A stretch of DNA of 64,000 bases, taken from positions 1 to 64,000 of the forward strand of contig JAIFMG010000026.1 of the NCBI GenBank assembly GCA_020048645.1, given 5' to 3'. Shown here piece by piece: positions 1,125 to 2,108 of the stretch (position 1 is its first letter; every line of letters begins with the position of its first letter). The position numbers were made by a program, and so were the translations under genes. The notes below the pieces were generated by a model. It was given only the letters and a program-made list of their open reading frames with translations. It had not been told where the DNA came from and searched no databases. The stretch comes from Bacteroidota bacterium (GTDB taxonomy: Bacteria > Bacteroidota > Bacteroidia > Bacteroidales > UBA6013).

Positions 1125-1156
1125 TTTGGCAAATTGGTTAGGAATGACTAGTTTTG
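1125..1156 (+). promoter_or_regulatory. Bacteroidota-type promoter (TTTG-N20-TAGTTTTG) upstream of XRE-S24 regulator
   Basis: TTTG at 1125-1128 and TAGTTTTG at 1149-1156 match the -33/-7 consensus. Confidence 0.55.
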
Positions 1157-1226
1157 ATTATTATTCAATCCGAATGCGGATTTGGATTTCGACATCAATC
1201 CACCACCCCAAAACCCCACTCCTGAA

Positions 1227-2024
1227 ATGTATTTCCAAAGCAACATCAAGCTCCTGCGCAAGCGCCGGGGCAAGACGCAGAACGATCTGGCCGACCTGCT
1301 GGACATGCGTCGGCCGACCCTGAGCGGCTACGAGAATGGCGTCGGCACCCCGAACCTGGCCGGGCTGGTCAGCTTCTCGGACTACTTCGGCATCTCTATC
1401 GACACGCTGATCCGCGAGGACCTCTCGAAGCTGGGCGAGATGCAGCTCTCGGAGCTCGAGCGCGGCAACGACGTGTATGTCAAGGGCGCCAAGACGCGCA
1501 TCCTGGTGAGCACTGTTGACAGCCAGGACAACGAGAACATCGAGCTGGTCAACCAGCGCGCCAAGGCCGGCTACACGCGGGGCTTCGCCGACCCGAACTT
1601 CATCCGCGAGCTCCCCCGCTTCCAACTGCCCTTCCTTTCGCGGCAGCGCAAGTACCGGACTTTCCAGATCGAGGGCGACTCGATGCTGCCCATCCCCGAT
1701 GGCGCATGGGTGACGGGCGAGTTCGTGCTCGATTGGAACGACCTCTCGCCCCGGCAGGCGTGCATCGTGGTGACGCTGGAGGAGGGACTGGTCTTCAAGG
1801 TGCTCGAAAAGGACTTTGAGCATGGATGCTTCCATTTTCACTCGCTGAACCCGGCCTATCCCCCTTACACCATGAAGACCAACGAGATAAAGGAGGTCTG
1901 GAAGTTCGTCCACTACATCAGCAGCGAGTTTCCTTACGAGGGCATGACCAACACCGACGTGGTGAAGCTCCTGGCCCAGCTCAACCTGGAAGTCGGCCAG
2001 ATCAGGAGCCGGCTGAACCTCTGA
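1227..2024 (+). CDS. XRE-family transcriptional regulator with S24 (LexA/CI-like) C-terminal peptidase domain
   Basis: N-terminal HTH (NIKLLRKRRGKTQNDLADLLDMRRPTLSGYENG) and S24 motif (IEGDSMLPIPDGAWV ... GLVFKVLEKD); ATG at 1227 in frame with ORF 1182..2024. Confidence 0.85.
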   Translation: MYFQSNIKLLRKRRGKTQNDLADLLDMRRPTLSGYENGVGTPNLAGLVSFSDYFGISIDTLIREDLSKLGEMQLSELERGNDVYVKGAKTRILVSTVDSQDNENIELVNQRAKAGYTRGFADPNFIRELPRFQLPFLSRQRKYRTFQIEGDSMLPIPDGAWVTGEFVLDWNDLSPRQACIVVTLEEGLVFKVLEKDFEHGCFHFHSLNPAYPPYTMKTNEIKEVWKFVHYISSEFPYEGMTNTDVVKLLAQLNLEVGQIRSRLNL

Positions 2025-2066
2025 AACGTGGGCCACTCCTTGTTTCCGCGGAAAAAGTGTCCATTT

Positions 2067-2108
2067 TTTGCTACTCTGGCCCAGCTTTGCTAAATTGGCT
2101 AGCAAATT
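2067..2108 (+). promoter_or_regulatory. Promoter (TTTG-N20-TAAATTGG) with overlapping quasi-palindromic operator AAATTGGCTAGCAAATT
   Basis: TTTG 2067-2070, TAAATTGG 2091-2098; operator-like motif at 2092-2108 resembles 1131-1147 upstream of the regulator. Confidence 0.5.

Follow-up and report, generated by a model that had tools for sequence, protein, structure and literature searches.

The one survey of SOS regulators in Bacteroidetes that we found is based on complete RefSeq genomes (Sanchez-Osuna et al. 2021, PMC8565304). The main text of that survey distinguishes two LexA groups, with operators of the classes CTAA-N5-TTAG and GGA-N5-TCC, and reports neither from the order Bacteroidales. 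In its non-canonical family an N-terminal HTH_3 domain of the CI type is joined to an S24 peptidase; the gene is autoregulated through palindromic half-sites separated by five nucleotides, often at two sites per promoter, and adjoins dinB-dnaE or imuA-imuB-dnaE2. Whereas the survey was based on complete genomes, nearly all of the records analysed here are metagenome-assembled. We describe a regulator that very probably belongs to this family, found in the first 64,000 nucleotides of a contig from a Bacteroidales-type bacterium (hereafter the window), together with the large Hsp70-like gene that follows it (Table 1).

Table 1. Features at the regulator and Hsp70-like genes (positions in the window)
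Feature	Position	Strand	Basis and remarks
TTTG element (-33), regulator promoter	1125..1128	+	Sequence; spacing same in ortholog promoters
Shared motif, copy 1: AAATTGGTTAGGAATGA	1131-1147	+	In the spacer of the regulator promoter; not conserved
-7 element TAGTTTTG (TAnnTTTG), regulator promoter	1149..1156	+	Sequence; TA offset in orthologs
Putative LexA-type operator TTTGATTATTATTCAATCCGA	1153..1173	+	Footprinting; best PWM site; consensus TTTGATTA-N5-TAATCA
Possible second operator at +23, degenerate, with a GATT half-site alone	1179..1193	+	Position in orthologs; 4 mismatches; weak
Non-canonical LexA-type SOS repressor (very probable)	1227..2024	+	HTH_3 and Peptidase_S24; residues; homolog neighbourhoods; family of PMC8565304
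21-bp dyad TTTGCTA-N7-TAGCAAA, Hsp70-like promoter	2086..2106	+	TTTGCTA-AATTGGC-TAGCAAA; predicted only
Shared motif, copy 2: AAATTGGCTAGCAAATT	2092-2108	+	Overlies the -7 region upstream of the Hsp70-like gene
Large ATPase-like protein of predicted Hsp70/actin fold, 1142 aa	2119..5547	+	Motifs; Foldseek; partner unlinked

Results

The regulator and its gene contexts

The regulator is a protein of 265 amino acids, present in single copy in its own genome, that matches PF01381 (HTH_3) in its N-terminal part (1.7e-12) and PF00717 (S24) in its C-terminal part (3.7e-07), both above the cut-off. Its Ala114-Gly115 cleavage site and its Ser152/Lys191 dyad are invariant in 17 orthologs. These are the residues of self-cleavage in LexA and CI, as described for the non-canonical LexA family (PMC8565304). 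In a sample of 393 genomes from the order (taken to be Bacteroidales as GTDB defines it; the window's own genome included), strong orthologs occur in about 140 among the matches listed above 200 bits. Named relatives include Candidatus Limimorpha caballi and Draconibacterium orientale, placed by NCBI in Bacteroidales and Marinilabiliales, respectively.

A dinB gene is divergent from the regulator ortholog in 53 of the 70 named Bacteroidota loci with enough sequence, and dinB is followed by a DNA polymerase III alpha-type gene in the three loci with a full listing. Plasmids carry more distant homologs, one of which is annotated as LexA family. That of Dyadobacter adjoins imuA together with genes for a Y-family and an error-prone polymerase, and those of Chryseobacterium and Emticicia adjoin dinB-dnaE. 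We also observed that the protein directly behind the LexA-type gene begins like a DnaQ-type exonuclease at nine loci, matching the COG0847 exonuclease of published regulons.

The window's own locus has no dinB, and none was found in the genome assembly (4.8 Mb in 242 contigs). Completeness of the genome is about 92%, and the assembly could therefore lack a dinB that the organism has. The DNA upstream of the regulator appears to have been rearranged, and this may account for the want of a divergent dinB there. At the contig end, the start of ORF 57-860 is repeated at 921-977 with 81% identity (27-83 versus 921-977), as a decayed copy directly before the regulator promoter. Taken together, these data very probably identify the regulator as the repressor of the DNA-damage (SOS) response in a bacterium of the Bacteroidales type.

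A conserved palindrome on the -7 element

Phylogenetic footprinting covered 105 ortholog promoters, 29 from order genomes and 76 from named organisms. GATTA-N5-TAATC occurs with at most one mismatch in 16 of the 29 order-genome upstream regions, where 0.6 would be expected, and the same half-sites with a spacer of four or six show no such enrichment in these regions. The palindrome is also found in 46 of the 76 named promoters, 37 of which hold more than one copy, the second usually starting 23 bp downstream; about 40% of ortholog promoters lack it at one mismatch or better. Its consensus is TAnnTTTGATTA-N5-TAATCA, the TTTG being common to operator and -7 element, and a TA stands at the -7 offset in 70 of the 80 promoters bearing the operator. 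Furthermore, the operator accompanies a divergent dinB (39 of 53 loci versus 4 of 17, Fisher p = 4e-4), although p-values of this kind are optimistic since related genomes are counted as independent. CTAA-N5-TTAG was found in none of the 76 named ortholog promoters. GATTA-N5-TAATC does not appear in the main text of PMC8565304, whose supplementary tables may list it.

The window promoter, TTTG-N20-TAGTTTTG-ATTATTATTCAATC, is arranged as in the orthologs, with operator half-sites GATTA-N5-CAATC and a GATT half-site at +23. Scored with a matrix (PWM) built without the window, this operator is the top site in 64 kb (13.4, the next reaching 8.5; p = 0.007 in its own promoter). Because the operator is conserved and the window copy is the best in 64 kb, autoregulation is likely. 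An earlier note on this DNA had proposed that the regulator represses itself through a motif shared with the Hsp70-like promoter; self-repression is well supported by the promoter comparison, and would act through 1153-1173 instead of that motif.

The motif shared by the two promoters

The two motif copies do lie at the claimed positions with the claimed sequences, identical at 12 of their first 14 positions, and both promoters have the TTTG-N20-TA form (1125-1128 to 1149 and 2067-2070 to 2091). Their placement differs, however: in the regulator promoter the motif falls within the spacer that separates the two elements, whereas in the Hsp70-like promoter it makes up the -7 region. The similarity is above chance only marginally. 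Between the two upstream regions, a best 14-mer match of 12/14 is reached in 4% of Markov shuffles and a best 21-mer match of 16/21 in 1.7%, and these values (p about 0.02-0.04) take no account of how this pair of promoters came to be chosen. Two matches to the motif at ≤2 mismatches arose within 64 kb in 9 of 100 shuffles.

The motif is absent upstream of all regulator orthologs examined (0 of 29 order-genome and 0 of 76 named promoters, 0/105), and even AAATTGG was not found in the 29 order-genome upstream regions. A search of the 4.8-Mb genome with the motif revealed no regulon; the one further exact copy lies on another contig, close to where a small reading frame begins. It is highly improbable that AAATTGGYTAGSAA is the operator of another repressor acting on both promoters. 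The 12/14 match does nominally exceed shuffles, and at ≤2 mismatches the genome contains 109 matches versus 35 for the reversed pattern, but part of the 109 are repeats at contig ends, one-mismatch copies elsewhere are mostly within ORFs, and no ortholog promoter conserves the motif. The shared AAATTGGYTAG most likely reflects a chance similarity between AT-rich promoters of Bacteroidota type, real as text and unsupported as an operator. Resemblance of promoters judged by eye can thus miss a conserved operator a few bases away.

Targets elsewhere in the genome

Genome-wide tests were confined to pattern searches. The genome contains recA, and its only Y-family polymerase is the product of a umuC-like gene that follows a umuD-like one. 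No convincing GATTA site was found in the promoters of umuDC, recA, the tubulin-like gene described below or the neighbouring upstream gene, the site at recA (GATTCGTCCTAAATC) having p 0.2 with the operator PWM. The 15-bp GATTA pattern shows no genome-wide excess. The longer pattern gives 40 sites elsewhere in the genome versus 16 for its reversed form; most of those inspected fall within ORFs, and not one precedes a recognised SOS gene. As no regulon site is recognisable beyond the regulator's own promoter, autoregulation is the only target supported here. A CTAA-N5-TTAG regulon was also considered for this genome and rejected, as this pattern is not in excess. The DNA upstream of the umuD-like gene (G000:C95, locus L173) holds two sequences of some 20 bp that are nearly identical, CCATCGAAGGCACCTTGGTA and CCAACGAACGCACCTTGGTA, and these may be operators of another regulator.

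The Hsp70-like gene and its tubulin-like partner

The protein encoded behind the regulator belongs to no Pfam, NCBIfam or PADLOC family, and no match to it was found in plasmids, PDB sequences or a single-protein scan of genome contigs. Its C-terminal half contains GIDFGSNNSC and GIDVGGSTSD, the Hsp70-like motifs falling at residues 570-800; as VGIDFGSNNSC and LGIDVGGSTSD, they would fit an actin/Hsp70 fold. Foldseek matched DnaK/BiP (E ~1e-7) with a low-confidence model of mean pLDDT 56, the C-terminal half being better modelled. Profiles detected no C-terminal substrate-binding domain, and the long N-terminal region is of no known family.

Full-length orthologs occur in 10 of the 393 order genomes, the window's included, with one distant relative in genome G192. 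A Tubulin_2-like gene is directly upstream in 7 of these 10 genomes and in G192, the exceptions being G035 (a 5-kb contig), G325 and the window's own genome, where the tubulin-like gene is unlinked on another contig (G000:C48:45020-46612). Its product matches PF13809 at E 3e-5, below the curated cut-off. The conserved pair is rare and patchy in the order, being seen at eight loci (L071-L074, L076 and L077 besides L016:3995-9139 and L017:3998-9185); in G076, genes for PP2C phosphatase and protein kinase come next. We found no description of a tubulin/Hsp70-like/PP2C system in the papers searched. At L074, the tubulin-like gene has a promoter containing TTGCTA-N11-TAGCAA and, on the other strand, the shared motif with one mismatch; confined to a single genome, these sites could point to an operator common to the pair.

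Control of the Hsp70-like gene

The regulator and the ATPase had been proposed to form a self-contained two-gene stress module with no other gene nearby in the same orientation. ORF 57-860 and the genes from 6720 on lie on the same strand, however. The latter comprise a tandem pair of SiaC-family regulatory phosphoprotein genes (PF09345; 6720-7100 and 7185-7616), followed by MoxR-like, DUF58-like and vWA-type genes. The regulator is found in 4 of 10 genomes with the ATPase and in 138 of 383 others (Fisher p = 0.75), no Hsp70-like gene occurs in the 109 regulator loci examined, and none of the first three Hsp70-like orthologs was seen to have a regulator ortholog as its neighbour. With the motif unconserved and no co-conservation, two outcomes that the earlier note had itself named as refuting its proposal, with no adjacency elsewhere, and given that the usual companion of the Hsp70-like gene is a tubulin-like gene, the module is unsupported.

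Two routes to SOS control of the Hsp70-like gene were weighed against its independence. In the first, the regulator would repress both genes, reaching the second through the dyad 2086-2106 as a LexA box and making it an SOS gene of this lineage. The dyad has perfect 7-bp arms on the -7 element, shares 16/21 positions with the regulator promoter and is the best match in the genome to TTTGCTAA-N5-TTAGCAAA, with one mismatch. Read as CTAA-ATTGG-CTAG, it is also one mismatch from CTAA-N5-TTAG, a published box of the non-canonical LexA family as given in the main text of PMC8565304, and for this reason SOS control is possible. Such a dyad arises in 7.4% of shuffles, however, the TTTGCTAA-N5-TTAGCAAA pattern shows no genome-wide excess (18 versus 36 for the control), and the clade operator PWM scores it poorly (-0.8, p 0.12). 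Moreover, Hsp70-like orthologs lack the dyad and occur without the regulator, which leaves this first route unlikely. Indeed, the promoters of Hsp70-like orthologs are without operators except for weak matches; one exact CTAA-N5-TTAG upstream of the tubulin-like gene of G076 is probably inside the preceding ORF.

In the second route, the Hsp70-like gene would have no operator of its own and be SOS-induced by readthrough from the regulator promoter. Both genes are on the same strand, separated by a 94-bp gap in which a search for a terminator found none, and co-oriented close downstream genes are frequent in regulator orthologs, several with the DnaQ-type exonuclease start. The gap, however, holds a Bacteroidota-type promoter, TTTG-N20-TAAATTGG, and the arrangement was seen in a single genome, so we regard readthrough as an unlikely explanation too. 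RNA structure in the intergenic region is not above shuffles.

Discussion

The explanation that we hold to be probable is that the regulator is an SOS repressor acting through its own GATTA operator, that the Hsp70-like gene is an unrelated neighbour and that the shared motif is due to chance. The domains, catalytic residues, conserved operator and gene contexts behind it were computed, and from there we infer DNA binding, RecA-triggered cleavage and the independence of the Hsp70-like gene. The regulator would be a non-canonical LexA of Bacteroidota and its organism's SOS repressor. In its own promoter it would bind the GATTA-N5-TAATC palindrome lying across the -7 box, and in this way block transcription. 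Upon DNA damage, RecA filaments would provoke self-cleavage at Ala114-Gly115 by Ser152/Lys191, and the regulator gene would be derepressed. The Hsp70-like gene would use its own promoter, its product being presumably part of a two-protein system with the tubulin-like protein.

A bolder reading takes GATTA-N5-TAATC as the Bacteroidales SOS operator and holds that the large Hsp70-like ATPase came under LexA control in this lineage, since its gene follows lexA, is separated from that of the tubulin-like partner and has CTAA-N5-CTAG on its -7 element. We give this reading a small chance; if true, SOS control in Bacteroidales has an operator of its own and an effector of an unusual kind.

The regulator is present in about one third of the order genomes sampled, and GATTA-N5-TAATC stands in the promoter region that the regulator gene and dinB have in common. 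The worthwhile result is that an order from which the main text of the published survey reports no such protein has a LexA-type regulator and, with it, a distinct class of operator. Finding the two together makes SOS regulation in these mostly uncultured Bacteroidales directly testable.

The Hsp70-like protein resembles the Hsp70/DnaK nucleotide-binding domain in its two candidate phosphate-binding motifs and, by a low-confidence model, in the Foldseek match, and departs from it in its size, long N-terminal region, identity of about 12%, lack of a Pfam match and Tubulin_2-like genomic partner, itself a weak match to its family. The regulator agrees with the non-canonical LexA proteins, as the main text of PMC8565304 describes them, in its two domains, its Ala-Gly/Ser/Lys residues, its predicted autoregulation, its N5-spaced half-sites, often doubled, and the polymerase genes beside its homologs. 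Unlike them, it stands in a genome assembly without dinB where only its own operator is recognisable; its half-sites form GATTA-N5-TAATC and not CTAA-N5-TTAG or GGA-N5-TCC, and it is found in Bacteroidales, where that survey reported neither group.
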